DNA of 64,000 bases from Gammaproteobacteria bacterium (lineage in GTDB: Bacteria; Pseudomonadota; Gammaproteobacteria; Pseudomonadales; Azotimanducaceae): NCBI GenBank assembly GCA_002725995.1, contig PBRQ01000055.1:1-64000 (forward strand), written 5' to 3'. The notes beneath the pieces were generated by a model, which was given only the letters and a program-made list of their open reading frames with translations, ran no database searches and was not told the origin of the DNA. Of this stretch, positions 25,767 through 50,511 are shown piece by piece. Each line of letters starts with the position of its first letter. The stretch's first letter is position 1. The position numbers and the translations under genes are program-made.

Positions 25767-26981
25767 TTAAACTAGCGATCCAGCGGGGGGGTTAGCCCTG
25801 GCTCGGGCAGGCATCCAGAATGGCTTTTCTTTCACCTCACAGCGGGCTACCTTACTGTATTGGCGCAGTTCTTTTTCATAATATATTTCGGCCCAAATAT
25901 TACCGCCCAGATATTCGGTTTTGATCATCGCAAGGGCAATATTGGCTTTGACGGCGGGCGACCACATTGCGGACGTGACATAGCCGATTTCAAGGCTGCA
26001 TTGTTTATTTCCGTACAGGAAGGACCCTTCGGCCGTTTTGTTTCCTTCTATGTCAAGTTTAGTCAGGGTAAACCGGGCACCCCGCGTCTGCTCTGCCAGC
26101 AACGCACTTCTGCCATTGAAATGGCTTTTCTTAAAGTCGACCAACCAGCCAAGGTTGAGTTCAAATGGCGTCTGATCATGCTCAAAATGTACTGTTTTCA
26201 ATGCTTCGTTAAACTCGAACCCCGGCATGATAAAGCCTGCTTCGATTCGCGCCATATTCGTTGCTGTTTCCCCGAACGGATGGATGCCATAGTTCGCACC
26301 GGCAGCATAAAGCGCATCCCAAAGCTCAAGTGCCTGTTCTGGCTTGACCCAGAGCTCATAGCCCAAATCACCACTGAAGCCAGTTCGCGATACCATCAGT
26401 GATTCGCCCTGAAATGGGAAATAGCTAATGTTAAACGGCTTAACCTTCGTGATGCCATCAAGTCCCATCTTTCGTAACACCGTGCAGGAGGTAGGGCCCT
26501 GCAAAGCCAGCGCTGCAATCTCATCGCTCACATCCGTGATCGTAACTTCTTTAAAGCCAAAGGCACTTTTCTCCAGCCATGCGGTACAGGGGCTGCCACA
26601 AACCAGCATGAATTCATCATCAGCAAGTTTGAAAATAGTCCCATCATCGATCAGTCGTCCTTCATCTGTACACCAAACGACGTATGAGACCCGGTTTACC
26701 CGTGATTTTGTGATATCCCGGGTAACCATGCGATTTAACATTACTTCAGCATCGCGACCCTTGATGTTGTATTTTTGCATTGGGCAGATATCGTATGTAC
26801 CACAGGTATTGCGCACACAAAAATATTCATACTCAGCATCGTAGTAACAGTCTGCAAACTTGTAACCATTCCAGGCAGACCAGGCATCGCGGACGTTGAA
26901 TGCAGCCTGCCTAGGATGAAAATGTGAGCGCTTTAACTGCTCTCTACTGAAATCAAATTGCTCACTCGTCATAGCAGTCAT
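25767..26981 (-). CDS. GcvT/T-protein-like THF-dependent methyl/aminomethyl-transferase, cassette 1 (T1)
   Basis: A 404-aa protein of the GcvT/DmdA/LigM superfamily. It has RVSYVVWCTDEGRLIDDGTIFKL (the Asp pair near the folate and substrate site of T-protein), ALALQGPTSCTVLRKM and VSRTGFSGDLGYELWVKPEQALELWDAL (folate-binding lobe), and the C-terminal barrel VTSAMWSPAVKANIALAMI. It lacks any fused dehydrogenase. The start is ATG 26981 or the in-frame ATG at 26972; it overlaps the FAD enzyme A1 by 20 or 11 nt. By family it would move a one-carbon group from an N-, S- or O-methylated compound to tetrahydrofolate. Substrate unknown. Confidence 0.87.
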   Translation of the reverse strand: MTAMTSEQFDFSREQLKRSHFHPRQAAFNVRDAWSAWNGYKFADCYYDAEYEYFCVRNTCGTYDICPMQKYNIKGRDAEVMLNRMVTRDITKSRVNRVSYVVWCTDEGRLIDDGTIFKLADDEFMLVCGSPCTAWLEKSAFGFKEVTITDVSDEIAALALQGPTSCTVLRKMGLDGITKVKPFNISYFPFQGESLMVSRTGFSGDLGYELWVKPEQALELWDALYAAGANYGIHPFGETATNMARIEAGFIMPGFEFNEALKTVHFEHDQTPFELNLGWLVDFKKSHFNGRSALLAEQTRGARFTLTKLDIEGNKTAEGSFLYGNKQCSLEIGYVTSAMWSPAVKANIALAMIKTEYLGGNIWAEIYYEKELRQYSKVARCEVKEKPFWMPARARANPPAGSLV

Positions 26982-28581
26982 CTTCCGGAACGGTATTCTT
27001 GCGCTTCAGGTCCATCAGGATTTCTCTTGCCGCATTGGCACCGCAGGCAGCAGATACACCGCCGCCGGGATGGGTCGAAGAGCCACACATGTACATGTTT
27101 TTGATCGGCATCCGGTACTGCGCATACCCCGGGAAAGGTCGATTGAAAAGCAGTTGATCGATTGTCAGTTCGCCCTGGAAGATATTCCCTTCGGTTAGAC
27201 CAACTTCTCTTTCTATGTCGTTGGCCGTTCTGACCTCCATGTGTACGATCAAGTCTTCAAATCCGGGGCAGTAACGGGCTATCTTGTCAACAACGGACTT
27301 ACCAAACTGTTCACGTTTCTCATCGGTCCAGGGTCCATCACTAAGTTCAGCAGGGCAGTACTGGATGAAGTTAGACATCCAGTGTTTCCCCGGTGGCGCC
27401 ACGGTTGGATCCCAGGCGGAAGGTATGACTGACTCAACAAACGGGTCATCGGACCAGCGACCACGCTTCCAGCAGTCAAAAGCCCTTTCCATTGTTTCCA
27501 GCGAACCGGGGAACGTCTGCCCGCCTCGATTAATGTAGGGATTATCCGGTACACCAGTAAATTTCGGCATCCCCGATAAGGCAATATTTACCTTTCCAGA
27601 TGAGCCGCGTATTTTAAAATTTTTCGCCTTCTCATAGATCCCGGGCGGAAGGTCATTCTTATCCATAATCCCGGTAAAAGTCCGCTTTGCATCCAGATTT
27701 GACACGACGATGCGTGACTTTATTTCCTCGCCGCTTTCCAGCACTACTCCGGTCGCCTTACCATTCTTGACCAGAATTTGTTGCACTCCAGCGAGTGTTC
27801 GAATCTCGCCACCCTGCTCCTGAAAAGCCGCGGCGATTGCATTGGATATAGCGCCCATACCACCTCTCGCCAGACCCCATGCACCGATGCTGCCATCCAC
27901 ATCACCCATAACATGATGCAGCAATATATAAGATGAACCGGGGGAGTACACACCAAGCGCTGTACCGATAATACCGGCACTGGACATCGCTGCCTTGATT
28001 AAATCATTCTCGAAATAGTCATCGAGAAATTCTGCGGCGCTGATGGTGAAAAACCTGATGTATTCATAAATCTCTTTCTCCCCCAGCGACCAGAACTGTT
28101 TCGCCAGAAACAATAGTTCTGATATATCGCGTGGGCGGAATGAAGTTGGATCCGGTGGCGTGCGTAGCAGTGTTTTTCTGATTAGGAGCGAATAGCGGGT
28201 TAAGTCGGACTGGAATCGGTGCATGGCATCGGCATCGTGAGAGGAGTGTCGTTTCAGTTCCAGATAGGTCGACTCTTCGTTGTGATAGGACAGCAGTGTA
28301 CGCCCATCATCAGCAAAGTTGACAGTCCCGAGGTAGGGAACAAGCAGCAGCCCATGCCTGCCTAGATCAAGATCACGGTGCAGGGACTGTCTCATCATAC
28401 TGCATACGTATGAACAGCTTGAATAGATCCAGCCCTCGTGCATTTCGCGTGAAACGGCTGCACCGCCAATATAGTCGTTCTTCTCAACCACCAATACATC
28501 GAGCCCTGCCTTCGCCAGGTAAGCGGCATTGGTCAGACCATTGTGACCCGCACCAATGATGATGGCATCATATTCTTTCAT
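26962..28581 (-). CDS. PYROXD2/phytoene-desaturase-like FAD oxidoreductase, type A, cassette 1 (A1)
   Basis: A 539-aa COG1233-type flavoprotein. The real start is the ATG at 28581 (MKEYDAIIIGAGHNG), in a 4-nt ATGA overlap with the upstream B1 stop; the longer ORF adds only read-through sequence. The N-terminal GxGxxG FAD site is followed by VLVVEKNDYIGG. Type-A marks are SCSYVCS, LRTPPDPTSF, GVYSPGSSYILLHHVMGDVDG, KNFKIRGSSGK and the C-terminal EGNIFQGELTIDQLLFNRPFPGYAQYR ... MYMCGSSTHPGGGV. The last GG-rich segment closes the FAD site. It likely oxidises or desaturates a small molecule together with B1. Paralogues are at 35.6 and 44.9 kb. Confidence 0.85.
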   Translation of the reverse strand: MKEYDAIIIGAGHNGLTNAAYLAKAGLDVLVVEKNDYIGGAAVSREMHEGWIYSSCSYVCSMMRQSLHRDLDLGRHGLLLVPYLGTVNFADDGRTLLSYHNEESTYLELKRHSSHDADAMHRFQSDLTRYSLLIRKTLLRTPPDPTSFRPRDISELLFLAKQFWSLGEKEIYEYIRFFTISAAEFLDDYFENDLIKAAMSSAGIIGTALGVYSPGSSYILLHHVMGDVDGSIGAWGLARGGMGAISNAIAAAFQEQGGEIRTLAGVQQILVKNGKATGVVLESGEEIKSRIVVSNLDAKRTFTGIMDKNDLPPGIYEKAKNFKIRGSSGKVNIALSGMPKFTGVPDNPYINRGGQTFPGSLETMERAFDCWKRGRWSDDPFVESVIPSAWDPTVAPPGKHWMSNFIQYCPAELSDGPWTDEKREQFGKSVVDKIARYCPGFEDLIVHMEVRTANDIEREVGLTEGNIFQGELTIDQLLFNRPFPGYAQYRMPIKNMYMCGSSTHPGGGVSAACGANAAREILMDLKRKNTVPEDDCYDE

Positions 28582-30116
28582 TTCAGAATCTCTTGTGCAG
28601 CATTGTGTCCAGCCCCACCCATCAACCCGCCACCAGGGTGGCATCCAGCACCGCAGAGATGAAGGCCACCAATAGGCGTCTGGTACTGTGCAGCACCATA
28701 GGTAGGACGCATCATTAACGACTGGTCAAGGGACAACTCAGAATGGTGCCAGTGACCTCCAGTAACACCATACTCTCGCTCTAGATCAGCAGGTATCAGC
28801 AATTCATGATGCAGGATCTGCTCCCGGATACCAGGGGCATATTTGGCAATGGTGTCTATCAGAAGCTGAGTATAGGCTTCACGGACCTGGTCATCCCAAC
28901 CCCCCTGCAGGTATCGAGGGACATACATGACATGAGCTGAGAGGACATGCTGGCCAGCCGGTGCCAGCGTCTCATCATGTATGCTCGGAATAACGATTTC
29001 CATTACCGGCACCATCGAGCAGTGTCCATATTTGGCATCATCATAGGCAAATTCGATGACGTCCATATCCGGCGCGATCAGTAACCTGCCATCCGGACTG
29101 TCAAGGCCTGAAAATTCAGGAAGTTCCTTGAGCGCAAGGTGAAACTTCGCCACATAACCATCGGCGCGCAACCTGCGAATTCTGTTGGTAAAACCGATTT
29201 CAAGGTGTTGCACACCAACCAGATCAAGAAAGGTTTTTTTCGGGTCGGCTGAAGATATCACGCAATCTGCTTCTATCTGCTCCCCCGTGTCCAGCTTTAC
29301 GCCCGTGGCTAGGAGCCCCTCCGCACCATCACCAATAACTATTTCTGCTACGGGGGCGCCAGTACGAATTTCAACGCCGGAGGCGCTGGCCGACGAATGC
29401 AGTGCTTCTATCAATGTCTTCACGCTAGCGGATGATACCTGGTGCGCGGTTGGACCGGACATTCTCAGTAACAGCGTAATCAGCGAATGATTAGGTGAAC
29501 GTGGGGCCAGTTTCGAGCCGATCAACCCGTCCCAACTTAGCATTGCCTTCAGTATTTCATTGTCAAAATTCTCGTCCATTAAATCCCGCATGGGCAGGGT
29601 CAGGATGCGAAGAAATTCTCGCATATCGGCCTTACCCATAAGGCGCATGTTCATCCCAAGATGCGCATATGACATTATCTCCGGCAGGCTGTTGTTGCCA
29701 ATCGGGGGCACTGTCTGCAACCAGAAGGGCTTAACCATGTTGGCGAATCGTTGTATTAGTTCTAAATATTTGCCGTAGGACTGCTCATCATCGTTTGCTA
29801 CACCGGAGATACGCCCCCCCTGCAGAACGATGTGGTTTGTATCGGCTGAAAGGCCAATCGTGGGTAATGGGGCAGCATCCAGATTGAAGCCATGCTTCTT
29901 TAGATTGAGGTCCCGTGCCACTTTTTCTGAGAAATAGCTGATACTGTGGGCAATGGAGGTCTTGAATTCAGGATGGAATTCACGCACAGAAGCGAGCCCA
30001 CCAACAGAATCGGAGGATTCGAGTAGCAGAACCTTCTGACCACTTCGCGCTAGGTAGTTCGCGCAGACCATCCCGTTGTGGCCGGCACCAATGATGATCG
30101 AGTTGTAGCGATGCAC
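28578..30116 (-). CDS. PYROXD2/phytoene-desaturase-like FAD oxidoreductase, type B, cassette 1 (B1)
   Basis: A 512-aa flavoprotein distinct from but related to type A. It begins MHRYNSIIIGAGHNGMVCANYLARSG with the FAD GxGxxG, then VLLLESSDSVGGLAS. Type-B marks are the central MREFLRILTLPMRDLMDENFDNEILKAMLSWDGLIGSKLAPRSPNH, and near the end EYGVTGGHWHHSELSLDQSLMMRP followed by LHLCGAGCHPGGGLMGGAGHNAA. It is first in the B1-A1-T1 operon and faces fhs across a divergent intergenic region. In cassettes 2 and 3 the order is A then B, so this cassette has been rearranged. The reaction is not assigned for this family. Confidence 0.84.
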   Translation of the reverse strand: MHRYNSIIIGAGHNGMVCANYLARSGQKVLLLESSDSVGGLASVREFHPEFKTSIAHSISYFSEKVARDLNLKKHGFNLDAAPLPTIGLSADTNHIVLQGGRISGVANDDEQSYGKYLELIQRFANMVKPFWLQTVPPIGNNSLPEIMSYAHLGMNMRLMGKADMREFLRILTLPMRDLMDENFDNEILKAMLSWDGLIGSKLAPRSPNHSLITLLLRMSGPTAHQVSSASVKTLIEALHSSASASGVEIRTGAPVAEIVIGDGAEGLLATGVKLDTGEQIEADCVISSADPKKTFLDLVGVQHLEIGFTNRIRRLRADGYVAKFHLALKELPEFSGLDSPDGRLLIAPDMDVIEFAYDDAKYGHCSMVPVMEIVIPSIHDETLAPAGQHVLSAHVMYVPRYLQGGWDDQVREAYTQLLIDTIAKYAPGIREQILHHELLIPADLEREYGVTGGHWHHSELSLDQSLMMRPTYGAAQYQTPIGGLHLCGAGCHPGGGLMGGAGHNAAQEILK

Positions 30117-30250
30117 TTCAAATCTGCCGTCTAAGGTATCGACACAGACTATTCAATGCTTGTAGATAGGGCTTCTCAGCCTATACGCTTAATACCTCTA
30201 TCAGCCAGTAAAAAGCAGACCGGTAGACCGATACATGGATGCGTCGGTCG

Positions 30251-30278
30251 CAAATCAACGACATAGGCCGTTGATTTG
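30251..30278. repeat. Inverted repeat: 10-bp perfect arms, 8-nt loop
   Basis: CAAATCAACG and CGTTGATTTG flank ACATAGGC. No T-run follows on either strand and it lies between divergent genes, so a terminator role is unlikely. It could be an operator dyad or a REP-like intergenic palindrome. Confidence 0.7.
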
Positions 30279-30349
30279 TCGCGAGTGCACTTGAGGCCCA
30301 CGACCTTAGAAAATGTGCAGGAATGCACTTTTTCAGCAGGCTGTAGGGG

Positions 30350-30355
30350 TATAAT
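30350..30355 (+). promoter_or_regulatory. Candidate -10 box upstream of fhs
   Basis: A perfect TATAAT lies 109 nt before the fhs ATG. No good TTGACA is seen 16-18 nt upstream of it, so if real it may need an activator. It is only a candidate. Confidence 0.35.
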
Positions 30356-30463
30356 CGCTAGGCTTCCACTCTTATAGGGCAGGTGGCTAGCAAACGTCTA
30401 GTTGTTGAACATACGGGGCCTATTGCTCCAACAACCTTTTTAAAGTGGCCAAGAAGAACTCAA

Positions 30464-32140
30464 ATGACTGAACCTAAAGCAGATATTGATATCGCTCGTG
30501 AAGCGGATTTAAAGCCGATCACCGAAATAGGCACCAGCCTCGAGATTCCGGAGGATTCACTACATTGTTACGGCCGCTACAAGGCCAAGATTGATTTTGG
30601 CTTTATCCGCTCTCTGGAGGACAGGAAGGATGGTCAGTTGATCCTGGTAACAGCCATGTCACCGACCCCGGCTGGCGAGGGGAAAACCACGACAACGGTT
30701 GGCCTTGGAGATGCGCTCAACCGCCTTGGCAAAAAAACTACCGTGTGTTTGCGAGAACCTTCCCTTGGACCCTGCTTCGGAATGAAGGGTGGTGCTGCAG
30801 GAGGCGGTTATGCCCAGGTTGTACCAATGGAAGATATTAACCTGCATTTCACCGGTGATCTGCATGCTATCACTACGGCTCACAACCTGCTTGCAGCGCT
30901 TGTGGACAACCATATTCACTGGAAAAACGATGAAGGTCTGGATGCCCGGCGTTTAAGCTGGCGTCGGGTAATGGACATTAACGATCGCACCCTGCGGCAC
31001 ATAAATACCGGCCTTGGTGGAACCGCAAACGGTGTCCCCCGAGAGACAGGGTTCGATCTCACGGTAGCATCCGAGGTCATGGCGATCTTCTGTCTCGCAA
31101 AAAATCTACCGGATCTGCAACAGAGGCTGGCAAAAATGATCGTCGGCTATCACCAAAATGGAGAACCGATAACGGCTAGTGAAATGAAAGCTGACGGCCC
31201 CCTGACTGCCATTTTGCGGGATGCCCTGATGCCCAATCTGGTACAGACACTGGAGAACAACCCAGCCATCATTCACGGTGGCCCGTTCGCTAACATCGCA
31301 CATGGGTGCAACAGCGTTATTGCAACCAAGACAGCCTTAAAACTGTCCGACTACGTGGTAACAGAAGCAGGATTCGGGGCTGACCTTGGTGCGGAGAAAT
31401 TCTTTAACATCAAGTGCCTCAAGGCTGGCCTAAAGCCTGCTGCTGCGGTTATTGTTGCAACTGTAAGGGCGCTGAAAATGCATGGTGGCGTAGCCAAAAA
31501 GGACCTGGATAGCGAAAATATCGTTGCGGTTCAGCAAGGCATTCCCAACCTGGCCCGCCACATCAGAAATGTTGGCAAGTTCGGTGTACCAATTGTGGTT
31601 GCGATTAACCGTTTTACAAAGGATGTTGACAGCGAGATAAGCGTCGTTAAGCAAATGTGTGCCGAACTGGGTGTGAAAGCTATTGAATCCAATCACTGGA
31701 CCAGCGGCGGCTCCGGTGCCGAGGAGCTTGCAACCAACATCACCCAGTTGGTTGAGTCTGGCACATCTCAGTTTCGACCACTCTATGATGAGCAAACCAG
31801 CCTGTGGGATAAAACTGAAGAGGTTGCTAGAAGCATCTACGGTGCATCTGAGATTATCGCCGACAAGAAAGTACGAAACCAGTTTCGTCAATTTCAGAAA
31901 AAATACGGGCACTTTCAGGTCTGTATGGCAAAGACCCAATACAGCTTCTCTACCGACCCCAATTTAATGGGCGCACCGAGCCATCATGTTGTGCCCATAC
32001 GTGAACTCCGATTGTGTGCCGGAGCGGAATTTGTTGTTGTGATCTGCGGTGACATCATGACCATGCCTGGATTACCCCTGCGACCCAGCGCACACGATAT
32101 TCACGTGGATGAAGACGGCGAAATACAGGGCCTTTTCTAG
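30464..32140 (+). CDS. fhs: Formate-tetrahydrofolate ligase
   Basis: A 558-aa enzyme starting at the ATG at 30464 ([19 protein letters not shown]); the ORF track extends 27 residues further but family members begin here. The P-loop-like [56 protein letters not shown] and the C-terminal [21 protein letters not shown] are diagnostic. It interconverts formate, THF and ATP with 10-formyl-THF. Beside three T-protein-like genes it probably recovers ATP and formate from THF-bound one-carbon units, as in ligM-type demethylation clusters; no folD or metF is in the window. The promoter candidate lies about 110 bp upstream. Confidence 0.95.
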
Positions 32141-32221
32141 CCGGCTCCTATCCCTATTTACCATCGAGGAGACTAACATCGAGCGGGCAATATCCAATCT
32201 GAACATCCAGCACAAAATACC

Positions 32222-32896
32222 ATGTCATCGCCACTGAGTGATCATAAGCTAGTCGCATTGCTGGACAGATTACATGCCCAGAGCGACAGGCAGATAGCTG
32301 AAATCGATGAGTATTGCATTCAACTCGAAAAGAAAGATGATTTTGACTGGCGTGTCTTCGACGATGACATGCACCGATTCTTTGCAGATAAAATGGTCGC
32401 ACTTGATCGTGACAAGGCTGAGTTCTGTTATCAGTTGTGCCGCGCACTAGGTGCATCTCGCGTCGTCGAGGCCGGCACCTCGTTCGGCGTCTCAACCCTT
32501 TATCTGGCAGCAGCAGTTCGTGACAATCGGGTGGAAGATGGTCTGGTCATTGCGACCGAATGGGATCCGGGAAAGGCAGCAATCGCTCGACGGAACTTCA
32601 GCGAAGCAGGGCTTAGTGAGTTTGTTGATCTACGCGAGGGTGACCTGCGTCAGACACTTCGCGGCCTTGAAGGTGGCATAGACTTTATGCTGGTGGACAT
32701 ATGGGAGGTTGCAAAACCTGCCCTTGAACTTGTTTCGCCCTATCTGCTTACAGGTGCCGTTGTGGTTTGCGACAACACCACGGTGGATCGGGGTGAGTAC
32801 GATGACTACTTTGAGTTTGTTGAGAATCCTGCAAACAGGTTCCGCACCATGACACTCCCTTTTCAGGGTGGGTTAGAGCTTACCGTACGAATCTAA
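32222..32896 (+). CDS. Class I SAM-dependent O-methyltransferase-like protein
   Basis: A 224-aa Rossmann-fold methyltransferase of the catechol/caffeoyl-CoA O-methyltransferase type. Motif I is VVEAGTSFGVSTLYLAAAV; the acidic loop IATEWDPGKAAIARRNF binds the SAM ribose; DFMLVDIWEVAKPALELV matches the metal and post-II region. It lies about 80 bp after fhs on the same strand and converges with T2, ending only 7 bp from the T2 stop. A methyl-donating enzyme inside a putative demethylation cluster is unexpected; it may modify an intermediate or be a passenger. Substrate unknown. Confidence 0.8.
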   Translation: MSSPLSDHKLVALLDRLHAQSDRQIAEIDEYCIQLEKKDDFDWRVFDDDMHRFFADKMVALDRDKAEFCYQLCRALGASRVVEAGTSFGVSTLYLAAAVRDNRVEDGLVIATEWDPGKAAIARRNFSEAGLSEFVDLREGDLRQTLRGLEGGIDFMLVDIWEVAKPALELVSPYLLTGAVVVCDNTTVDRGEYDDYFEFVENPANRFRTMTLPFQGGLELTVRI

Positions 32897-32903
32897 GGTC
32901 AGT

Positions 32904-34094
32904 TTAAAATTGACCGGGTGGTGTAGCTGATCGCCGTGGATGTGACCAGAATGGTTTATCAATAATCCTGCATTCGGCCCAGGTTGCTCGCCACTCCAAC
33001 TCTTTCTGATAGTAGATTTCAGCCCAGACTTCTGATGGCGCCACCCCATTGCGATACTCAACGTCCGCCATGGCCAGGTTCGCTTTTAGTATGGGCGACC
33101 AAACTTGTGACTTTATGGTCCCAATCCGCTTACCACTCTTGCCGTCATAAAGAAATGAATCTGCGGGTGGCTTGTTCCCCTTCACCGACATTTTAACCAG
33201 GCGCCGCCTTATGGGTAGAGCCTGCTCGGCAATCAGCGCGCGTTTACCGGTAAAGTAAGGCTTATTAAAATTCACCACCCAGTCCATACCGAGCTCAAAT
33301 GGAGAGCGATCGTGGTCTGCACGAACTGTGGTTTCAGCAGTATTAAAGTCATCCCCCGGCATAATGAAACCGGCTTCAATTCTGACTATTTCAAGCGCAT
33401 CAAGGCCGACGGGTCTGATGTTGTACAGGTTCTGTACTGCGAAGATTGCGTCCCACAGTTCAAGCGCATTCTCCGGGCTGGTCCAGAGCTCGTAGCCAAG
33501 ATCCCCCGTGTAACCGGTACGGGATATCATGACTTCGAAACCGTGCAAATTTGTCTGCAGAACGCGGAAAGGTTTCAATTGTGCAAGCCCTCTAAACCCT
33601 GCCTCCGTCAGGACTGAACATGAGGTAGGGCCCTGAATCGCAAGTGCCGCGACCTCGTGTGTCTCTTTGCTGATATTGACATCCATCCCCAGGCTGGACA
33701 GAAGCAACCAATCCAACTGATGATGCTGCGAACACAGGCGGTAGTCATTTTCCGCCAATTGAAAGATAGTGCCATCGTCCAGCACCTTACCCTCATCGTT
33801 ACACCACAATACATAAGTGACACGGCCGACTTGTAACTTGGAAATGTCACGGACGACTAAGTGAGAGAGAAATTTGAAAGCATCTGGCCCGGTGATGCGG
33901 TATTTCTCCATGGGAGTCAGATCCATCACACTACAGGAACTGCGGATCGCGAAATATTCCGAAGCAAGCGTGTCGTAAACCCGCGCGGTCTGATAGCCAT
34001 TCCACGATGTCCAGTTCTTCACCAAGCTCTGTTCATCAACCCTTGCATGAAAGGGGGTTGGCTCTAGTACCTGCTTAAAGTCATGCTTCGCCAT
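32904..34094 (-). CDS. GcvT/T-protein-like THF-dependent transferase, cassette 2 (T2)
   Basis: A 396-aa paralogue of T1 and T3. It keeps RVTYVLWCNDEGKVLDDGTIFQL, ALAIQGPTSCSVL, ISRTGYTGDLGYELWTSPENALELWDAI, RIEAGFIMPGDDFN and the C-terminal barrel KSQVWSPILKANLAMADV. It follows B2 after a 4-bp gap, last in the A2-B2-T2 operon. The three T proteins share the whole frame and the xPFHxR start but differ through most variable positions, so they are old duplicates, not assembly copies; different substrates are likely. As for T1, one-carbon transfer to THF is inferred from the family. Confidence 0.87.
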   Translation of the reverse strand: MAKHDFKQVLEPTPFHARVDEQSLVKNWTSWNGYQTARVYDTLASEYFAIRSSCSVMDLTPMEKYRITGPDAFKFLSHLVVRDISKLQVGRVTYVLWCNDEGKVLDDGTIFQLAENDYRLCSQHHQLDWLLLSSLGMDVNISKETHEVAALAIQGPTSCSVLTEAGFRGLAQLKPFRVLQTNLHGFEVMISRTGYTGDLGYELWTSPENALELWDAIFAVQNLYNIRPVGLDALEIVRIEAGFIMPGDDFNTAETTVRADHDRSPFELGMDWVVNFNKPYFTGKRALIAEQALPIRRRLVKMSVKGNKPPADSFLYDGKSGKRIGTIKSQVWSPILKANLAMADVEYRNGVAPSEVWAEIYYQKELEWRATWAECRIIDKPFWSHPRRSATPPGQF

Positions 34095-37261: not shown

Positions 37262-37499
37262 CGGTACAACTCCCGCTCCATGCGGAAATATATCATCGCC
37301 GCGGTACCGTTTCCTGTTTGCCGATAGGCTCGGGCTTGACAACAGGCAGCCCAATACCTTGTCATGTAAGTACCCAGATGCACAAATAATAGAGCACTGG
37401 CGAAGGATATTAGGCTTCAGCAGTGAAGGATTCTATCACCCGGACAGCTCAGCCTCGATCAGCACCGAGAAACCAACGACTAAACAACTTGGCATCAAA
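37262..37499. promoter_or_regulatory. Divergent promoter region between A2 and the TMADH-like gene
   Basis: A 238-bp stretch that must drive transcription both ways. On the plus strand TTGACA (37336-37341) is followed after 18 nt by TGTCAT, a weak -35/-10 pair about 135 nt before the ATG. No strong dyad was found. The ORF-track extension of the downstream gene into this region (from 37359) is not supported by family similarity. Confidence 0.35.
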
Positions 37500-42478: not shown

Positions 42479-43978
42479 ATGCAAACCGACCTCGTTGGCG
42501 ACCTGGCTATTTCTTGGATAGACCTCTCAATCATCGGGGTCTATATCGTCGCTATGCTCGGTGTAGGATACTATATCTACCGGCAGGCACCCAGCTTCGA
42601 AGAGTACCTGGTCGCCGGAAGGTCCATGACGACACCGATCCTGATTTGCTCCCTCGCATCTACCTATTACGGTCTCGATGTGCTGTTCGGTACATCGGAG
42701 GTGGGCTACAACGATGGCATCGTCGCCTTCTTCGGATATTCTGAACTCTCCATCGCTTTCTATGTACTGGCCGCCTTTTTACTCAGCAAAAAGTTACACC
42801 GGGAAAAATTTATATCTCTACCGGAGATACTTGAGCACAACTATGGTATTGGGGCTGGCCTGTGTGGCGCGCTCGCATCAATTTTTTATTCCATTCCCGC
42901 TTTGCCCCTGTTCGGTCTGGGGCGAATTTGTGAAGTTATTTTCGGTATGGATGCGATGATTGGTGCATTACTTTTGGGAAGCATCGCGCTCATCTATACA
43001 CTCTGGGGTGGTCTGTGGGCAGTCGCCATTACCGACACCATACAGTTTGTTCTCATGTGCCTGACCCTCGCTATTGGCTTACCCATCCTCTTGTCGGAGA
43101 CCGGAGGGTTCGACTACGTAGCCACCTGGGCTCCAGAGGGATACTTCTCTCCGCTGGGGGGTATGCCTATCTGGCTGATGATCGCATACATGGCAACGGG
43201 GTTGAGTATTCTGGTTGACCCGGGGTTTTACCAGCGTATTTTTGCCGCCGAAAATTACAAGCAGGCTCGCAACGCAATGCTCATCTGTATTTTTGTATGG
43301 CTAGTCTATGACTGGCTGGTCACGGCGGGTGGAATGCTGGCAGCTTCAGCTGTACAACAGGGCATACTGCCGGAGGGCCTGCACTCCAACGATGCATTGT
43401 TGACGGCAATGATCTATGCACTTCCCGTCGGTCTGATCGGCATATTTCTGGCGGGAGTTCTTGCAACAGCCATGTCGACTATTGACTCCTATTCACTCGT
43501 TGCTGGTGCCAATATCTCCTATGACATTTACCGTCCACTGCTGAAACCTGATGCCTCCGATCGGGAACTAGTGAGCATGACAAAAATTGGTATTGTCATA
43601 TCCTGGGTCCTCGGCTTCGTCCTGGCATTCCTGTTTGACCGACTGATGGCACTCTGGGTATTCATGGCAACGATTCTCACTTCAACCGTACTGGTACCAA
43701 TATTCATGGGGCTTTTCTGGCGAGGCAACAAGACTCCTGCTGCAGGGGTTTTGAGTTGTCTCATCGGTCTCTTCAGCGTCATAGGATACTACCTGGCAAT
43801 CAGCACCCTGGGGGCCGAGAATGAGGTATACGGGACCTATATCTGGACATTCTCCATCGCAGGAAGCACCTTTAGTCTCTGGCAGGAATATGCACTGTAT
43901 TTCAGCCTGCCACTATCCCTGCTGGGATTCGCCATAGGCAACTCAATCGGCACACCATACACGGAGCAATCCAAATGA
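42479..43978 (+). CDS. Sodium:solute symporter (SSS family)
   Basis: A 499-aa polytopic protein with about 13 predicted membrane helices. It shows the SSS core: FEEYLVAGRSMTTPILICSLASTYYGLDVLFGTSEVGY (helix 1, Na+ site region), an ALIYTLWGGLWAVAITDTIQFVLM motif, and GLIGIFLAGVLATAMSTIDSYSLVAGANISYDIY with the Ser/Thr of the second Na+ site. It imports an organic solute with Na+. It lies between the aminotransferase and a 44-aa membrane protein whose ATG overlaps its stop (ATGA). The solute is probably the substrate of the surrounding pathway, unknown. Confidence 0.9.
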   Translation: MQTDLVGDLAISWIDLSIIGVYIVAMLGVGYYIYRQAPSFEEYLVAGRSMTTPILICSLASTYYGLDVLFGTSEVGYNDGIVAFFGYSELSIAFYVLAAFLLSKKLHREKFISLPEILEHNYGIGAGLCGALASIFYSIPALPLFGLGRICEVIFGMDAMIGALLLGSIALIYTLWGGLWAVAITDTIQFVLMCLTLAIGLPILLSETGGFDYVATWAPEGYFSPLGGMPIWLMIAYMATGLSILVDPGFYQRIFAAENYKQARNAMLICIFVWLVYDWLVTAGGMLAASAVQQGILPEGLHSNDALLTAMIYALPVGLIGIFLAGVLATAMSTIDSYSLVAGANISYDIYRPLLKPDASDRELVSMTKIGIVISWVLGFVLAFLFDRLMALWVFMATILTSTVLVPIFMGLFWRGNKTPAAGVLSCLIGLFSVIGYYLAISTLGAENEVYGTYIWTFSIAGSTFSLWQEYALYFSLPLSLLGFAIGNSIGTPYTEQSK

Positions 43979-44109
43979 ACCCCTGGGACATCTTTACCTG
44001 GTTGTGCAGTTTTCTCCTGGCCGCCAGCTCGCTGCTCATCCTGTATTATTTTCTAGCTGGACTGGGGAAACTGCTTCACATGGACAAAGGGAAAGAAGAT
44101 GGACATTGA
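43975..44109 (+). CDS. 44-aa single-helix membrane protein, likely symporter accessory protein
   Basis: Too short for the ORF track. ATG at 43975 overlaps the symporter TGA by 4 nt. The product, MNPWDIFTWLCSFLLAASSLLILYY..., has one hydrophobic helix (about residues 8-32) and a short charged tail ending KGKEDGH. Its TGA at 44107-44109 overlaps the next gene start (44099) by 11 nt, so all three are translationally linked. Small single-helix partners are known to follow SSS-type symporters. No database check was possible, but tight double overlap argues for a real gene. Confidence 0.75.
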   Translation: MNPWDIFTWLCSFLLAASSLLILYYFLAGLGKLLHMDKGKEDGH

Positions 44110-44662
44110 CGCGCCCCTGCAGGAGTTGGGGGAAGTAGAAGTTGATTCACTCCGTAGGGCCATACTGAAATTGGACAGCGCCGTCTGGAAGGAACGGCCA
44201 CTTGCTGAAAATATCTACGAGAATCACCAACAAACCCAGTCAATCGTGTTGGTGTTTACCACAGCGGCTGGCTGGCCCGAAATTGAGGTAAGCAAAGAAA
44301 GCGGCTGGGATATCCTGGCGGACGTTGCCGTACCAGTGATGCACAGCATAATAGAAACGTGGTATTCCAAGGGTGGCTCCATTATCCGCGCTATGGTCTC
44401 ACGGCTACCAGCGGGAAGGGTCATAAGCCCACATATTGACAAACACCCCTCATTCCATGCGGGCCACCGAGTCCATGTGCCGATCACAAGTAACCCCCGT
44501 GTCCGGTACATGATTGATGGGAGGCCCTACAACCTTGAGCCGGGCAAGGCGTACGAACTAAACAACCAAAAAAATCACAGCGTCATGAACAAGGGCCAGG
44601 ATGACAGGATAAATTTTCTGTTTGACTATGTACCACCTGCGAAGTCACAAGGTGATCAATAA
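44099..44662 (+). CDS. Aspartyl/asparaginyl beta-hydroxylase-like Fe(II)/2-oxoglutarate protein
   Basis: A 187-aa cupin-fold protein of the Asp_Arg_Hydrox type. It shows ISPHIDKHPSFHAGHRVHVPITSN, giving the HxD iron ligands and the following Arg/His, and ELNNQKNHSVMNKGQDDRINFLFDY, where the distal His and the 2-oxoglutarate-binding Arg are expected. Such enzymes hydroxylate free or peptide residues, or act on small molecules such as amino-acid derivatives. It overlaps the 44-aa membrane protein gene and ends the aminotransferase-symporter operon, so a small-molecule role in the pathway is more likely than protein modification. Inferred. Confidence 0.8.
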   Translation: MDIDAPLQELGEVEVDSLRRAILKLDSAVWKERPLAENIYENHQQTQSIVLVFTTAAGWPEIEVSKESGWDILADVAVPVMHSIIETWYSKGGSIIRAMVSRLPAGRVISPHIDKHPSFHAGHRVHVPITSNPRVRYMIDGRPYNLEPGKAYELNNQKNHSVMNKGQDDRINFLFDYVPPAKSQGDQ

Positions 44663-44868
44663 GCGCACCGATATCAGATAGCCAAGGCAAGTACTTACAA
44701 TTCGCTCAATGGTATTATCGATGCAAATTGGCGATAATCCCAACGCTCTGACAAGGTTTCCACTGATATGTGCCAATAGGCTAGGAAGGAGCAAATTGGC
44801 CTTTGCAACTAAACTAGCCGGCTCCTGAGCAAATTCCAAAAAATGCAAACTACTGAGTGAGTAGGTGT

Positions 44869-46485
44869 TTGAAAAAGTATGATGCAATAGTCATTGGGGC
44901 CGGACACAACGGCCTAACAAATGCAGCCTATCTAGCCAAGGCCGGCCTCGATGTAGTGGTGCTCGAGAAGAACCCTTATATCGGTGGTGCAACGGTGAGC
45001 CGTGAATTGCATGAGGGTTGGATGTATTCCAACTGTTCCTATGTCTGTAGCTTGCTGCGCCCTGAAATTTCACGAGACCTAAACCTACCAAAATTTGGAT
45101 TGCAGGTGATCCCCTATGTTGGTGGAGTGACCTTTAAGCGTGATGGGGATTACTTCGGCAACTACGATGACCACGAACGGCAATACCGCGAGATAGCCAG
45201 GCATTCCAAAAGAGATGCCAACGCCTACGAGCGCTACACCGCCGACGTCACCAAACAGACACGCTTTATCCGCCCCTTCCTGTTACGCACACCACCAGAT
45301 CCAACCTCCTTCAAGCCGAGGGATATCCAGGAGCTACTGTTCCTTGCCAAGTCCTTCTACAATCTTGGCGAAAAGGTACTTGGCGATACACTTAGATTCT
45401 GGACCATGAGTATCGGTGATTTCCTCGATGAGTACTTTGAGACAGACGTCATTAAATGCCACCTGGCCGGCAGCGGTATTATTGGTACAGCATTGGGTGT
45501 TTATTCGCCGGGCACGGCCTACGTCCTGCTGCATCACTATATGGGTGAGGTAGATGGTTCAGTGGGTGCCTGGGGATTTGCCCGGGGTGGTATGGGGTCC
45601 GTATCCAAGGCATTGGCCGGAGCCTTCCAATCATTCGGTGGTGAAATCCGAGCCGATGCTGAGGTGGATAGAATTCTGGCGACGGCGGGACGAACGAGCG
45701 GCGTAGTTCTCGCCAATGGCGACGAAATTTATGCAGATATTGTTGTTTCCAACCTTGATCCAAAGCGTACTTTCCTCGATATCATGGCTGAAGAAGATCT
45801 ACCGGCTTCCGTTGTCAAGCAGGCTAAAAATTTCAAAATTCGTGGCTCCTCGGGAAAGCTCAACATTGCCCTCGACGGCCTGCCAACATTTAATAGCCTG
45901 CCACCCAAGAGTCCGCTAATGACCGGCGATATGCATTTCATCGATTCCCTTGAGCGCATGGAACGGGCCTATGATGATTGGAAGAATGGAACCTGGTCTC
46001 AGGATCCCTATGTCGATATGTTAATACCAACACAGGTAGACCCAACGATGGCACCAGTGGGCAAACACATGATGAGTGTGTTCGTCCAGTATGCTCCACC
46101 CAAACTTGCGACCGGCAAGTGGACAGATAAAGATCGAGATGCTTTCGGGAAAACGGTCATCGATCAGATTGGAAGTTACAGCCCGAATTTTAAAGACCTT
46201 ATTCTTCATGCGGAAGTCAGAACACCACAGGATATTGAGGATGAAGTTGGACTGACTGAAGGCAACATCTTCCAGGGTGAATTAACCTTCGATCAATTGC
46301 TGTTTAACAGGCCTTTCCCCGGCTATGCCCAATATCGTGGACCTGTAAAGGGCATGTACATCTGCGGCTCAGGCACACACCCCGGAGGAGGCGTCATGTC
46401 GGCCCCCGGCGCAAATGCCGCGCGGGAAATTCTGATGGATTTAAATCACCCAACAACAGTCCCGGAGGCCTATCCGGATGACTGA
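44869..46485 (+). CDS. PYROXD2/phytoene-desaturase-like FAD oxidoreductase, type A, cassette 3 (A3)
   Basis: A 538-aa flavoprotein. A TTG at 44869 gives LKKYDAIVIGAGHNG, matching MKKYDAIVVGAGHNG of A2, and is preferred over the ORF-track GTG at 44857; the ribosome site (GTGAGTAGG) is weak. Type-A marks are all present: NCSYVCSLLRPEI, LRTPPDPTSFK, GVYSPGTAYVLLHHYMGEVDGS, KNFKIRGSSGK and FDQLLFNRPFPGYAQYRGPVKGMYICGSGTHPGGGVMS. It leads the third cassette on the plus strand, overlapping B3 by 8 nt. Very similar to A2; probably the most recent duplication of the three. Confidence 0.84.
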   Translation: MKKYDAIVIGAGHNGLTNAAYLAKAGLDVVVLEKNPYIGGATVSRELHEGWMYSNCSYVCSLLRPEISRDLNLPKFGLQVIPYVGGVTFKRDGDYFGNYDDHERQYREIARHSKRDANAYERYTADVTKQTRFIRPFLLRTPPDPTSFKPRDIQELLFLAKSFYNLGEKVLGDTLRFWTMSIGDFLDEYFETDVIKCHLAGSGIIGTALGVYSPGTAYVLLHHYMGEVDGSVGAWGFARGGMGSVSKALAGAFQSFGGEIRADAEVDRILATAGRTSGVVLANGDEIYADIVVSNLDPKRTFLDIMAEEDLPASVVKQAKNFKIRGSSGKLNIALDGLPTFNSLPPKSPLMTGDMHFIDSLERMERAYDDWKNGTWSQDPYVDMLIPTQVDPTMAPVGKHMMSVFVQYAPPKLATGKWTDKDRDAFGKTVIDQIGSYSPNFKDLILHAEVRTPQDIEDEVGLTEGNIFQGELTFDQLLFNRPFPGYAQYRGPVKGMYICGSGTHPGGGVMSAPGANAAREILMDLNHPTTVPEAYPDD

Positions 46486-48052
46486 TAGCAAGCATATCGA
46501 TGTGGTAGTAGTCGGTGCCGGGCACAACGGTCTCGTTAGCGCAGCTTACCTAGCCAAGTCAGGCCTGCAGGTTCTGGTGCTGGAAGCCTCTGACAAGGTT
46601 GGCGGCGCTGCCGCCACCAGTGAATTCAGTGAAGGCTTTTCAGTTTCCGAATGCGCACACTTTCTGTACTCGTTGCACCCAACAATCGTCAAGGATCTGC
46701 AACTGGCCAATCATGGCCTGTTCTACGTTGCCACAGATCTCAAAACCGTCGCACTGTCCAGCGAAGGAAAGCACATCACCATGGCGGGAAGCGAAATCCA
46801 GGGCGAAGATGTTTCCACTGAGGATATCAGCAACTATCGCCGATTCCATACTCAAATGAAGCGGTTTTCGAAAGTACTGGCGAGTTCTTTTACGCACAGG
46901 CCCCCTCGTCTCGTCGATGGCGATATGAAGGATAAGTTGTCACTGCTGAAGCTTGGCTGGAATGCCAGAAAAATGGGCAGACAGAATATGCTGGAATTGC
47001 TACGTATCGGTGCGATCAATATCTACGACGTGCTGAATGAAAATTTTGACAACCAACTTCTTAAAGGCGCGCTTAGCCTGGAAGCAGTTCTTGGATCCCA
47101 TACGGGCCCGCGATCCCCAAATACTGTTCTGGGACTTTTATACAGGCGCGTTGGAGAAACATACGGATTTCGCGGACCGACGATTCCATCTGGAGGCATG
47201 GGCAATGTATCCAATGCAATCGCTTCATCAGCCACATCACTGGGGGCAGCAATTCGCACTAGCAGCCCGGTTGAGAGGATACTAATCCGGGACGGGAAGG
47301 TTGCCGGAGTAAAATTAAGCGATGGCGAAGTTATCAACTGCGACCGGGTCATCTCCAATGCGGACCCAAAGTATACTTTTTCAAAACTTGTCGGCTACCC
47401 GCAGTTGGAAACAGGTTTTTCCCGTCGTGCGGCTAACATTCGGATGAAAGGGAATACTGCCAAGCTACATCTAGCACTTGAGGCGCTGCCAGAATTTACG
47501 GGCCTCAATACAAACGATATTGGTAATCGTCTGGTTATCGCACCAGGTCCAGATTATGTGGAAAATGCCTTTAACCATGCAAAGTATGGAGAATTTTCTG
47601 AACACCCCATCATGGAAATTAGCATACCCACCGTCCATGATACGAGTCTGGCACCGACCGGGAAACACGTACTGTCAGCGGTCGTCCAGTACGCCCCGCA
47701 CAATCTTAAGCAGGGGTGGTCAGAGGCGAATGAAGAGTTTACGGCGCTATTGCTTGACCTGCTGGAGAGCTATGCCCCGGGCATTAAAAAGCTCGTCATT
47801 GCCAGCGAGCTCCTGACACCCGCTGATATTGAATCCCGGTTTGGCACTACTGCTGGTCACTGGCATCATGGCGAACTGGCCCTGGATCAGTTTCTGATGC
47901 TACGCCCATTCCCCGGCATGGGCCAATACGCAGCACCCGTCAAAGGTCTCTTCCTCTGTGGAGCCGGTAGTCATCCTGGTGGAAATGTCATGGGACTTGT
48001 CGGCCGAAACTGTGCGAATACCCTACTTGAAGCTGGAGCAGCAAGTGACTGA
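46478..48052 (+). CDS. PYROXD2/phytoene-desaturase-like FAD oxidoreductase, type B, cassette 3 (B3)
   Basis: A 524-aa flavoprotein beginning MTDSKHIDVVVVGAGHNGLVSAAYLAKSG, with the FAD site and VLVLEASDKVGGAAAT. Type-B marks: MLELLRIGAINIYDVLNENFDNQLLKGALSLEAVLGSHTGPRSPN, RFGTTAGHWHHGELALDQFLMLRP and LFLCGAGSHPGGNVMGLVGRNCA. The ATG lies in an 8-nt ATGACTGA overlap with the A3 stop. Its own stop overlaps the T3 GTG start, again by 8 nt. Functional partner of A3 by arrangement. Confidence 0.84.
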   Translation: MTDSKHIDVVVVGAGHNGLVSAAYLAKSGLQVLVLEASDKVGGAAATSEFSEGFSVSECAHFLYSLHPTIVKDLQLANHGLFYVATDLKTVALSSEGKHITMAGSEIQGEDVSTEDISNYRRFHTQMKRFSKVLASSFTHRPPRLVDGDMKDKLSLLKLGWNARKMGRQNMLELLRIGAINIYDVLNENFDNQLLKGALSLEAVLGSHTGPRSPNTVLGLLYRRVGETYGFRGPTIPSGGMGNVSNAIASSATSLGAAIRTSSPVERILIRDGKVAGVKLSDGEVINCDRVISNADPKYTFSKLVGYPQLETGFSRRAANIRMKGNTAKLHLALEALPEFTGLNTNDIGNRLVIAPGPDYVENAFNHAKYGEFSEHPIMEISIPTVHDTSLAPTGKHVLSAVVQYAPHNLKQGWSEANEEFTALLLDLLESYAPGIKKLVIASELLTPADIESRFGTTAGHWHHGELALDQFLMLRPFPGMGQYAAPVKGLFLCGAGSHPGGNVMGLVGRNCANTLLEAGAASD

Positions 48053-49232
48053 TTTAGAGATCCCACCTCTCCTGTTACAGACACCATTTCACTCCAGGGT
48101 TTCCGCCGCATGCGAAATGAACCTGTGGGAGGATTGGAAGGGCTACACAACACCCGTTGCCTACAGCAACGTAGAGCTGGAATATTTCGCCATGCGGAAT
48201 TCAGCCAGCATCTTCGATATAACGCCCATGACCAAGTATCGAATCACTGGCGCCGATGGACATGCTTACCTCGACCGCCTGGTCACCCGCAATCTTAAAA
48301 ATTTGGATGTTGGCCGGGTTATGTACACCGCCTGGTGTAACGATGAAGGCAAGGTAATTGATGATGGCACCATTTTTCATGTGAACGACGATACCTTCAT
48401 ACTCTGCGCTCAGGAGCGGCACCTGGACTGGATGGAATGGTCTGCATTGGGCTTTGATGTGAAGATTGAAGATGTAACTGAGGAGATTGCAGCACTTTCC
48501 TTTCAGGGTCCAACCAGTTGCGCCATATTGAAAATAATGGGGCTCACCGGTGTCGAAAATCTAAAATCATTCGACCTGCAGCACTATCCATTTGGACAAA
48601 CGCAATTGATGGTTTCGCGAACCGGCTTTACTGCTGACCTGGGGTACGAGTTGTGGATCGAGCCAGACCACGCTGAAGCCTTGTGGGATGCGCTTATGGC
48701 AGCTGGACGGGACTACAACGTTAAGCCAGTGGGTGCCGAGGCGCTGCAGATCGCCAGAGTCGAGGCGGGTTTTATTCAGGCCGGTGTTGATTTTGTTCCA
48801 GCTGAGCAAGAAGTGCGCGTTGAGCGATCGAGATCCCCATATGAACTGGGTCTCGGCTGGCTAGTGCATCTGAAAAAACCGAACTTCAACGGTCAGCAGG
48901 CACTTAAGGAAGAAAAGCTCAAAGGGTCTCGCTTTCGTTTTACGAGGCTGGATGTCCAGGGAAACAAGCCGGCAGAGAATTCCTTTATTTTCAATCGACA
49001 GAACAAGGTTGTTGGGGTGGTAACATCCGCGGCCTGGGTTCCTACTGCAAAGAGAAACGTAGCTTTTGCCTCCCTGGAAATGCCCTGGGGCAAGCCCGGG
49101 AATGAACTATGGGCCGAGATATACTATCTTCGTGAACTCAAGTGGGCTCGTGTCCTGGAGAAATGCACGGTTATTGAGGAACCAATTTTCGACCCGGAAC
49201 GACGACACGCGACCCCGGCACTAGACTACTAG
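48045..49232 (+). CDS. GcvT/T-protein-like THF-dependent transferase, cassette 3 (T3)
   Basis: A 395-aa paralogue of T1 and T2. The ORF track begins at 47958, but the GTG at 48045 (VTDLEIPPLLLQTPFHSR), inside a GTGACTGA overlap with the B3 stop and with GGAG nearby, fits the family start. It keeps RVMYTAWCNDEGKVIDDGTIFHV, ALSFQGPTSCAIL, VSRTGFTADLGYELWIEPDHAEALWDAL, RVEAGFIQAGVDF and VTSAAWVPTAKRNVAFASL. Inferred one-carbon transfer to THF. It is followed after 7 bp by the PuuB-like oxidase, suggesting a four-gene A3-B3-T3-oxidase unit. Confidence 0.86.
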   Translation: MTDLEIPPLLLQTPFHSRVSAACEMNLWEDWKGYTTPVAYSNVELEYFAMRNSASIFDITPMTKYRITGADGHAYLDRLVTRNLKNLDVGRVMYTAWCNDEGKVIDDGTIFHVNDDTFILCAQERHLDWMEWSALGFDVKIEDVTEEIAALSFQGPTSCAILKIMGLTGVENLKSFDLQHYPFGQTQLMVSRTGFTADLGYELWIEPDHAEALWDALMAAGRDYNVKPVGAEALQIARVEAGFIQAGVDFVPAEQEVRVERSRSPYELGLGWLVHLKKPNFNGQQALKEEKLKGSRFRFTRLDVQGNKPAENSFIFNRQNKVVGVVTSAAWVPTAKRNVAFASLEMPWGKPGNELWAEIYYLRELKWARVLEKCTVIEEPIFDPERRHATPALDY

Positions 49233-49239
49233 CCCACCG

Positions 49240-50511
49240 GTGACTAATTCAAAAGAGCATACGGACTCATACTACGCGGCTACCCGCAATGATTTGACTA
49301 GCTACCCTGCCCTGAACGAAGAAATAGAAACTGAAATCTGTATCATCGGCGGTGGATTTACTGGTGTGGCATGCGCACTGACCATGGCCGAGCGTAGTCA
49401 CTCAGTAACTTTACTGGAACAACATCGAATTAGTTGGGGAGCCTCGGGCCGAAATGGAGGGCAACTCATCGGTGGAATCGGCGGGCGGGATTACTTGAAA
49501 AAGAGACTCGGAGACGATGCTGTCTGGAAGCTTGACTACCTTGGAAACGAAATCATTAAGGAGCGAATCAGCAAATATGAAATCGAATGCGATCTGAAGC
49601 CCGGTTATATTGAAGTCGCTTTCAAGCCAAGACAAATGGAGGGGTTGAGGAAAGAGTCCGAGGCGTACGAGTCAAGAGGACTGGGTCATCACTTGAGAAT
49701 GGTGGAACAAGATGAAATTCAATCTATGTTGGGAACAAGCGCCTATATTGGCGGCAGGACCAATGATTTGAATGGACACCTTCACCCCCTCAATCTCTGT
49801 GCTGGTGAAGCCAGAGCTGCCACAAGCCTTGGCGCATTGATTTATGAACAGAGTGAAGTGATCAATATTGAGCATGGCGAAAAAGTCAGGGTTTCTACCC
49901 CAGGCGGCTCAGTCACGGCAGACAAGGTCCTCCTTGCGGGTAACGCGTACCAGCACCTGGAGCAGAAAAATCTCTCCGGTCTGGTTTTTCCTGCTGGTAC
50001 TTTCATTATTGCAACTGAGCCACTCAGCGATGATGAGATTAAGGCAATCAATCCATATGATCTCGCTGTCTGTGATCTGAACAATGTACTGGACTACTAT
50101 CGTTTTTCACCGGACAACCGGCTCCTGTTCGGCGGGCGCTGTAACTATTCTGGCAAGGTGCCAAAAAGTATCAAAGCCAATATGCTGCCGAGGATGCTAA
50201 AGGTATTTCCGCAGCTGGAAGGTAAGAAGATAGACTATGAGTGGGGAGGAGATATTGGCATTGTAATCAAGCGTATCCCTTTGATGGGCAGGGTTACTGA
50301 CAATATTTTCTACTCAATAGGGTACTCCGGGCATGGCGTTGCACCAACCCACGTCGCCGCAGAAATTATTGCTGATGCCTTTGAGGGAGATATGGAGGTG
50401 TTGCAGGTCTATGAGCAGGTCAAACATTTTAGAATCCCACTGAGTCAGTGGTTCGGGAATCAGATAGTTGCCCTGGGGATGCTCTATTTCAGGGCCCTGG
50501 ACCACCTCTGA
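49240..50511 (+). CDS. DAO-family FAD oxidase, gamma-glutamylputrescine oxidase (PuuB)-like
   Basis: A 423-aa flavoprotein of the glycine-oxidase/PuuB group, starting at GTG 49240. It shows Rossmann FAD binding (CIIGGGFTGVACALTMAERSHSVTLLEQHRISWGASGRNGGQLIGGIGG), the covalent-flavin-free SGRNGG motif of PuuB and OrdL, and a C-terminal DYEWGGDIGIVIKRIPLMGRV ... YSIGYSGHGVAPTHVAAEIIADA. PuuB oxidises gamma-glutamyl-putrescine to the aldehyde with release of ammonia and H2O2. With the PuuA-like ligase at 39.6 kb it supports a gamma-glutamylated amine route, though sarcosine or glycine-type amines remain possible. It closes the plus-strand cassette 3 operon. Confidence 0.86.
   Translation: MTNSKEHTDSYYAATRNDLTSYPALNEEIETEICIIGGGFTGVACALTMAERSHSVTLLEQHRISWGASGRNGGQLIGGIGGRDYLKKRLGDDAVWKLDYLGNEIIKERISKYEIECDLKPGYIEVAFKPRQMEGLRKESEAYESRGLGHHLRMVEQDEIQSMLGTSAYIGGRTNDLNGHLHPLNLCAGEARAATSLGALIYEQSEVINIEHGEKVRVSTPGGSVTADKVLLAGNAYQHLEQKNLSGLVFPAGTFIIATEPLSDDEIKAINPYDLAVCDLNNVLDYYRFSPDNRLLFGGRCNYSGKVPKSIKANMLPRMLKVFPQLEGKKIDYEWGGDIGIVIKRIPLMGRVTDNIFYSIGYSGHGVAPTHVAAEIIADAFEGDMEVLQVYEQVKHFRIPLSQWFGNQIVALGMLYFRALDHL

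Follow-up and report, generated by a model that had tools for sequence, protein, structure and literature searches.

Described cases of folate-coupled demethylation involve DAO-type flavin domains, oxygenases or TMAO demethylase. In dimethylglycine dehydrogenase (DMGDH), sarcosine dehydrogenase (SarDH) and dimethylglycine oxidase (DMGO), FAD-dependent amine oxidation is coupled to a GcvT-like folate domain, the same coupling that we propose here, while the heterotetrameric sarcosine oxidase SoxBDAG combines several flavoprotein chains and a T-like part in one operon. GcvT relatives have also been found beside folate enzymes: in Sphingobium SYK-6, ligM-metF-ligH places such a relative next to folate enzymes including formate-tetrahydrofolate ligase (PMC6888825), a precedent for this type of gene grouping.

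The window analysed here, a stretch of 64,000 nucleotides from a marine gammaproteobacterium of the Azotimanducaceae (contig PBRQ01000055.1), carries three cassettes of two flavoproteins (A and B) and a stand-alone GcvT-like protein (T). We consider it likely that A-B-T is a cooperating oxidative N-demethylase that would pass a methylene group to THF and feed polyamine-type catabolism, with substrates differing between clades.

Organization of the three cassettes

The presence of three A/B/T cassettes had been proposed in a sequence-only reading of this DNA and was borne out by the open reading frames (ORFs), with refined coordinates:

28578-30116, minus strand: B1, second putative FAD flavoprotein of cassette 1 (ORF; Pfam Amino_oxidase; 42-44% identity to B2/B3)
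26962-28581, minus strand: A1, first putative FAD flavoprotein of cassette 1 (ORF; Amino_oxidase; 63% identity to A2/A3; ATG overlaps the B1 stop)
25767-26981, minus strand: T1, stand-alone GcvT-like folate-type protein (GCV_T 197 bits and GCV_T_C, the C-terminal barrel, 33 bits)
35648-37261, minus strand: A2, first putative FAD flavoprotein of cassette 2 (ORF; tree clade 2)
34099-35655, minus strand: B2, second putative FAD flavoprotein of cassette 2 (Amino_oxidase)
32904-34094, minus strand: T2, GcvT-like protein (PDB: T. maritima T-protein 7e-47, TMAO demethylase 6.5e-43)
44857-46485, plus strand: A3, first putative FAD flavoprotein of cassette 3 (AF2 model, pLDDT 85; Foldseek to 4rep/MAO/NicA2)
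46478-48052, plus strand: B3, second putative FAD flavoprotein of cassette 3 (AF2 model, pLDDT 90; Foldseek)
about 48045-49232, plus strand: T3, GcvT-like protein (GCV_T 201 bits; alignment; start overlaps the B3 stop)

In the direction of transcription the genes are ordered B1-A1-T1, A2-B2-T2 and A3-B3-T3. Adjoining frames overlap by 4-20 bp, except for B2 and T2, which are separated by 4 bp, and such overlapping or near-touching frames suggest translational coupling. Identity between cassettes ranges from 63 to 70% for A, 42 to 48% for B and 46 to 47% for T; A and B share 32-36% and are two distinct proteins. The proposed type-A motif FNRPFPGYAQYR is common to all three A proteins. GHWHHGEL, put forward as the type-B motif, is exact in B3 but altered in B1 (GHWHHSEL) and B2 (GHWHQGEM).

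Searches of the whole genome assembly (3.24 Mb, 87% complete) detected A/B-type genes only in the three cassettes, and all three T genes scored 198-203 bits against GCV_T. Elsewhere in this genome lie two ORFs that carry a GCV_T domain and, at about 810 aa, have the length of a fused protein, and one GcvT-like protein of about 405 aa. Another stand-alone GcvT-like protein of the same genome (L021, G000:C6:30373-31122) is placed on a long branch close to the T proteins of the A-B-T group. The window also contains AmmeMemoRadiSam genes (15160-17720), a radical SAM enzyme being encoded divergently from a fused MEMO1/AMMECR1 protein.

Conservation and lineages of the A-B-T module

Among the 104 A genes present over all loci, 92 belong to complete trios (87 A-B-T and five B-A-T). 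The incomplete cases comprise ten A-B pairs and one lone A, all ending at a contig edge, and an A gene with little upstream sequence and no T downstream (L078, 18147-19712) represents a true or possible exception. The trio is complete for 92 of the 93 A genes having enough flanking sequence, which rules out chance clustering, and in the sampled genomes B adjoins A in every clear case. Conserved adjacency in other genomes, on which the sequence-only reading depended, was thus confirmed, and a rare co-occurrence of the three families is clearly contradicted: A-B-T is a real, widely conserved three-gene module.

The A-based scan of the collection returned 80 loci in marine Gammaproteobacteria (Halieaceae, Porticoccaceae, Woeseiaceae, OM182, Pseudohongiella and HTCC2148) and in Alphaproteobacteria (Mesorhizobium, Shinella, Phyllobacterium, Kiloniella and Parvularculaceae), and the same trio is present on annotated plasmids. 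Scores for A are split in 299 sampled Pseudomonadota genomes, the trio type lying above about 780 bits and other PYROXD2-like proteins below about 530 bits. No B or T was found in the 1.5 kb flanks of the fetched loci with these lower-scoring genes, with the exception of Shinella sumterensis (L133, 8004-10755), in which a PYROXD2-like protein and a gcvT-like gene form a pair inside a carnitine/betaine-like cluster. Relatives at about 38-40% identity are without A-B-T context, one A-T pair excepted. At five loci (L110, L114, L121, L126 and L127) a Rieske oxygenase gene adjoins a PYROXD2-like protein that has neither B nor T.

All three cassettes lie within 25 kb, which favours their being interchangeable recent duplicates serving one substrate. 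However, in a tree built from concatenated A, B and T, with SH-aLRT support, cassettes 1 and 2 fall into two sister clades (100% each) and cassette 3 into a clade of 39 rows (98%), each with orthologues in other genomes. In a genome of the same order (G343), four separate and distant places each harbor a cassette, two from the clade-1 side and one each from clades 2 and 3, and gene order is not uniform, since five of the six clade-1 cassettes read B-A-T. Recent tandem duplication is ruled out by this tree, and interchangeable duplicates are very unlikely. Another genome of the same genus contains the whole island in identical gene order, and at one locus (L083) clade 2 and clade 1 cassettes are found side by side. 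Because the clades are separate, well supported and represented elsewhere, the cassettes are not recent copies; three old, non-equivalent cassettes make distinct substrates plausible, and their functions probably differ, as far as can be judged from the sequences.

Flavoproteins A and B

For both A and B the best overall Pfam match is Amino_oxidase. Family and phytoene-desaturase fold place them with the COG1233/PYROXD2-like proteins, and through COG1233 we take them to be of the PYROXD2 type. Foldseek searches with the AlphaFold models of A3 and B3 returned a carotenoid desaturase first, followed by monoamine oxidase, nicotine oxidoreductase and putrescine oxidase, and the best PDB sequence matches were also carotenoid desaturases. 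The latter matches speak for A and B as carotenoid or lipid desaturases with T as an unrelated neighbour, and carotenoid or lipid oxidation had been named before as the role that would undo the demethylation reading. However, no genes for carotenoid or lipid desaturation were seen among the neighbours examined, T is kept in the operon throughout, and amine genes surround the cassettes, so that a desaturase function is extremely improbable.

Both proteins keep the N-terminal dinucleotide-binding glycines and an HPGG stretch near the C-terminus, and therefore both probably bind FAD. Mean column identity is 76% for A versus 58% for B; being far more conserved, A may carry the main chemistry, and B might supply a second active site to handle a further methyl group, act as an electron-transfer partner or serve as a structural half.

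Human PYROXD2 is presumably of the same broad flavoprotein type as A and B. By COG1233 membership it would share their FAD protein type, but it is a single protein with no known B or T partner, and its human genetics points to N-methyl amines. Variants of PYROXD2 account for 50% of the variance of N6-methyllysine in plasma and are further linked to N-methylpipecolate and to di- and trimethyllysine (PMC8109053). Other associations are with TMA in urine and DMA in plasma (PMC3169529) and, in a table of PMC4564198, with asymmetric dimethylarginine. Such associations independently support an N-methyl-amine chemistry for proteins of this type. If our reading is correct, the orphan human PYROXD2 would be suggested as an N-methyl-amine (N6-methyllysine-type) oxidase, and A-B-T would offer a bacterial system in which to study it.

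The T protein

T comprises the GCV_T domain and C-terminal barrel of the GcvT/T-protein superfamily. Of 92 T proteins, 91-92 retain Asp95, Asp96, Tyr83 and Glu195 in the numbering of the T. maritima T-protein (TmT); we take Asp96 to be the catalytic Asp, and Tyr83 and Glu195 to be folate-pocket residues. At the position of Arg227, a classical folate residue, 86 of the 92 have Leu, as does TMAO demethylase, and the Tyr188 position is mostly Phe. The domain and the kept folate-site residues support T as a folate-type protein, in line with the sequence-only reading, while the changes at Arg227 and Tyr188 count against it.

A PDB search with T gave GcvT at 163 bits, TMAO demethylase at 150 and 3tfh, which we take to be DmdA, at 87, and on this weaker match an identity as DmdA was rejected. 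In the tree of T proteins, made by a quick method and containing long branches, the cassette T proteins cluster, with 98% SH-aLRT, with the domain of TMAO demethylase and a DmmA-adjacent protein of the dimethylamine pathway, away from true GcvT. Since T is separate from T. maritima GcvT, a true glycine cleavage T-protein was also rejected; neither gcvH nor gcvP was seen in the neighbourhoods examined.

The resemblance of A and B to desaturases and to amine oxidases acting on the carbon skeleton, such as putrescine oxidase, together with the separate substrates of the T relatives DmdA and LigM, could also be explained if A and B oxidized or dehydrogenated the skeleton of an amine and T separately demethylated an O-, S- or N-methyl group in the same pathway. 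Such a division of roles is quite unlikely, as T is nearest to methylene-accepting proteins and not to DmdA, and the near-invariant contiguity and gene overlap of A-B-T, amid neighbours that vary in other respects, point to a single joint reaction.

Other genes of the island and neighbours in relatives

The following genes lie beside and between the cassettes:

24881-25660, minus strand: AraC-type regulator beside cassette 1 (HTH_18; homologue near 4 of 6 clade-1 cassettes)
30383-32140, plus strand: formate-tetrahydrofolate ligase, FTHFS (NCBIfam PRK13505, 889 bits; PF01268, one match in own genome, G000)
32222-32896, plus strand: O-methyltransferase-like protein (Methyltransf_24/Methyltransf_3)
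37359-39581, plus strand: TMADH/histamine-dehydrogenase-like FMN/4Fe-4S amine dehydrogenase (histamine dehydrogenase 603 bits, TMADH 472; likely start near 37506)
39639-40970, minus strand: glutamine-synthetase (GS)-like ligase, candidate gamma-glutamyl-amine synthetase (PDB 5dm3)
41106-42473, plus strand: class III aminotransferase of the putrescine/polyamine:pyruvate type (PRK07480, 774 bits; putrescine aminotransferase 6gwi, 686 bits)
42479-43978, plus strand: sodium:solute symporter that may serve in uptake (154 bits to TIGR00813 sss, which is under its cut-off)
44099-44662, plus strand: small Asp_Arg_Hydrox (Fe/2-oxoglutarate) protein (PF05118; recurs in 17 of 84 A-B-T loci)
49240-50511, plus strand: PuuB/pipecolate-oxidase-like FAD oxidase of the DAO fold (DAO 223 bits; AmaA 176 bits, below cut-off)

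The FTHFS gene between cassettes 1 and 2 is the only one detected in this genome. Among 58 relatives, FTHFS was present in 7 of 10 with A-B-T versus 9 of 48 without (p 0.003, ignoring shared ancestry). Only in this genus does it adjoin the cassettes; MTHFR-like genes are found near cassettes at two other loci (L147 and L097). According to the alignment, the TMADH-like enzyme keeps the 4Fe-4S Cys motif and the equivalents of Trp264 and Trp355, which we take to form the substrate bowl of TMADH. At the place of Cys30, presumably the residue linking FMN covalently, it has Ala (VPHASG), as does the TMADH entry compared, whereas histamine dehydrogenase has Cys. The GS-like ligase scored below the cut-offs of the GlnA, GSIII and gamma-glutamylputrescine synthetase models.

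Near the 84 loci, which were chosen by A and come in many cases from related genomes, so that the counts are not independent, TetR regulators (54), Rieske proteins (46) and PotABCD-type transporters (about 40) were most often recorded, followed by class III aminotransferases (32, and 18 of a second type), acyl-CoA dehydrogenases (27), CoA ligases (23), GS-like (20), Asp/Arg hydroxylase (17), PuuB-like (14) and TMADH-like (4) genes. Glutamine-amidotransferase genes are also among the neighbours. Neighbours vary among clades, and no Rieske gene was found near clade 1 or 2 cassettes. The closest matches of the neighbouring Rieske protein are GbcA and Stc2 (3vca, which we take to be Stc2), and those of the binding protein are SpuE/SpuD/PotF (3ttl and 3ttm being presumably SpuE and SpuD). 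Three acidic pocket positions are kept in the PotF-like binding proteins, in which Asp, Ser or Thr usually stands at the place of PotF Glu185, and the rhizobial ones have lost the pocket acids; the pocket is suggestive of an altered cationic ligand, too uncertain to name.

A 3-hydroxypropionate/acryloyl-CoA-type tail, considered because of the acyl-CoA dehydrogenase and CoA-ligase neighbours, was rejected as all scores were far below the cut-offs. An arginine-deiminase/dimethylargininase-like gene lies beside a clade-3 cassette at L024 (6809-7684), and is also present at L026 and L039. The clusters of Mesorhizobium and kin (L085-L101) contain genes not seen in the marine ones, for a methyltransferase-like protein, a cupin of the DMSP-lyase family and an additional FAD oxidase. 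In Rhizobium sp. SL42 (L004, 4014-8526) MocD/MocE/MocF-like rhizopine-demethylation genes are located near the A-B-T operon.

Proposed reaction and candidate substrates

We propose that A, B and T of each cassette cooperate, probably as a complex, in which A, with B, would oxidize the N-CH3 group of a secondary or tertiary amine via FAD to a methylene-iminium, and T would capture the methylene on THF as 5,10-methylene-THF without release of formaldehyde. THF could be regenerated by folate enzymes, here by the formate-THF ligase working toward formate and ATP, and in relatives by the MTHFR-like proteins. For quaternary ammonium substrates, the first methyl may be removed by the Rieske protein of GbcA/stachydrine type that is frequent in relatives. 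The demethylated amine would then enter polyamine-type catabolism through gamma-glutamylation, PuuB-like oxidation and transamination.

The TMADH-like enzyme, the putrescine-type aminotransferase, the GS-like and PuuB-like proteins and FTHFS in the wider cluster strongly favour N-demethylation of amines over the cleavage of methylated compounds of other kinds. The earlier idea that each cassette is a three-protein demethylation or oxidative cleavage machine for a distinct substrate is supported in part, by the conserved adjacency, the folate-type T, the demethylation-type neighbours and the three old, non-equivalent lineages. As substrates we tentatively favour N-methylated diamines, polyamines or lysine-like amines, specific for each clade, at somewhat less than even odds.

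Simple methylamines are the main rival substrate class. The island might degrade them if the TMADH-like enzyme converted TMA to DMA, a cassette converted DMA to methylamine and the GS-like ligase were a gamma-glutamylmethylamide synthetase. This agrees with the Trp264/Trp355 equivalents in the TMADH relative, the match of the ligase to type III models (below cut-off), the relative of T beside DmmA, and the associations of PYROXD2 with TMA and DMA. On the other hand, the aminotransferase in the window is of the putrescine type, relatives have polyamine-type ABC transporters and not small-amine ones, three unlike cassettes exceed the need of two demethylations, and no Mgs or Mgd genes were found among the window proteins examined. 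We therefore regard simple methylamines as unlikely.

Comparison with known systems

The A-B-T module falls outside DMGDH, SoxBDAG, GcvT and DmdA, each of which fails in a defining feature. DMGDH, SarDH and DMGO fuse a DAO-fold FAD domain to T, whereas A and B are two separate proteins with Amino_oxidase as best match and T is free. Compared with SoxBDAG, the module has three genes instead of four subunits, none of them SoxD/G-like, no NAD-binding alpha subunit and an unrelated FAD fold. TMAO demethylase (9q59/9q5a) and DmmABC-D contain the T domain nearest to the cassette T in the tree, but have partner enzymes of other kinds, which the cassettes lack. LigM, unlike A-B-T, is an O-demethylase that makes methyl-THF without flavoenzymes. 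Relatives of the Rieske and TMADH-like proteins of glycine betaine and stachydrine demethylation (GbcA, Stc2, DgcA and TMADH types) adjoin A-B-T, and to our knowledge the module itself is absent from the described routes.

No published description of A-B-T was found in the open-access literature searched, which is weak evidence of novelty. The initial suggestion of an undescribed system agrees with this, but has to be narrowed, as the module would fit known folate-coupled oxidative N-demethylation as a variant. Whether it represents a new class, in which two paired PYROXD2-type flavoproteins hand methylene to a free T, with clades for polyamine-, lysine- or betaine-like compounds and PYROXD2 acting likewise, is in our view evenly balanced. 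If so, genes of rhizobia and marine Gammaproteobacteria whose annotation at present goes no further than NAD(P)/FAD-dependent oxidoreductase and aminomethyltransferase family protein could be assigned a function, and folate-coupled demethylation would gain a further architecture, the Amino_oxidase-fold pair. The best reading, by analogy, is that A-B-T may be a non-homologous counterpart of dimethylglycine dehydrogenase or SoxBDAG.
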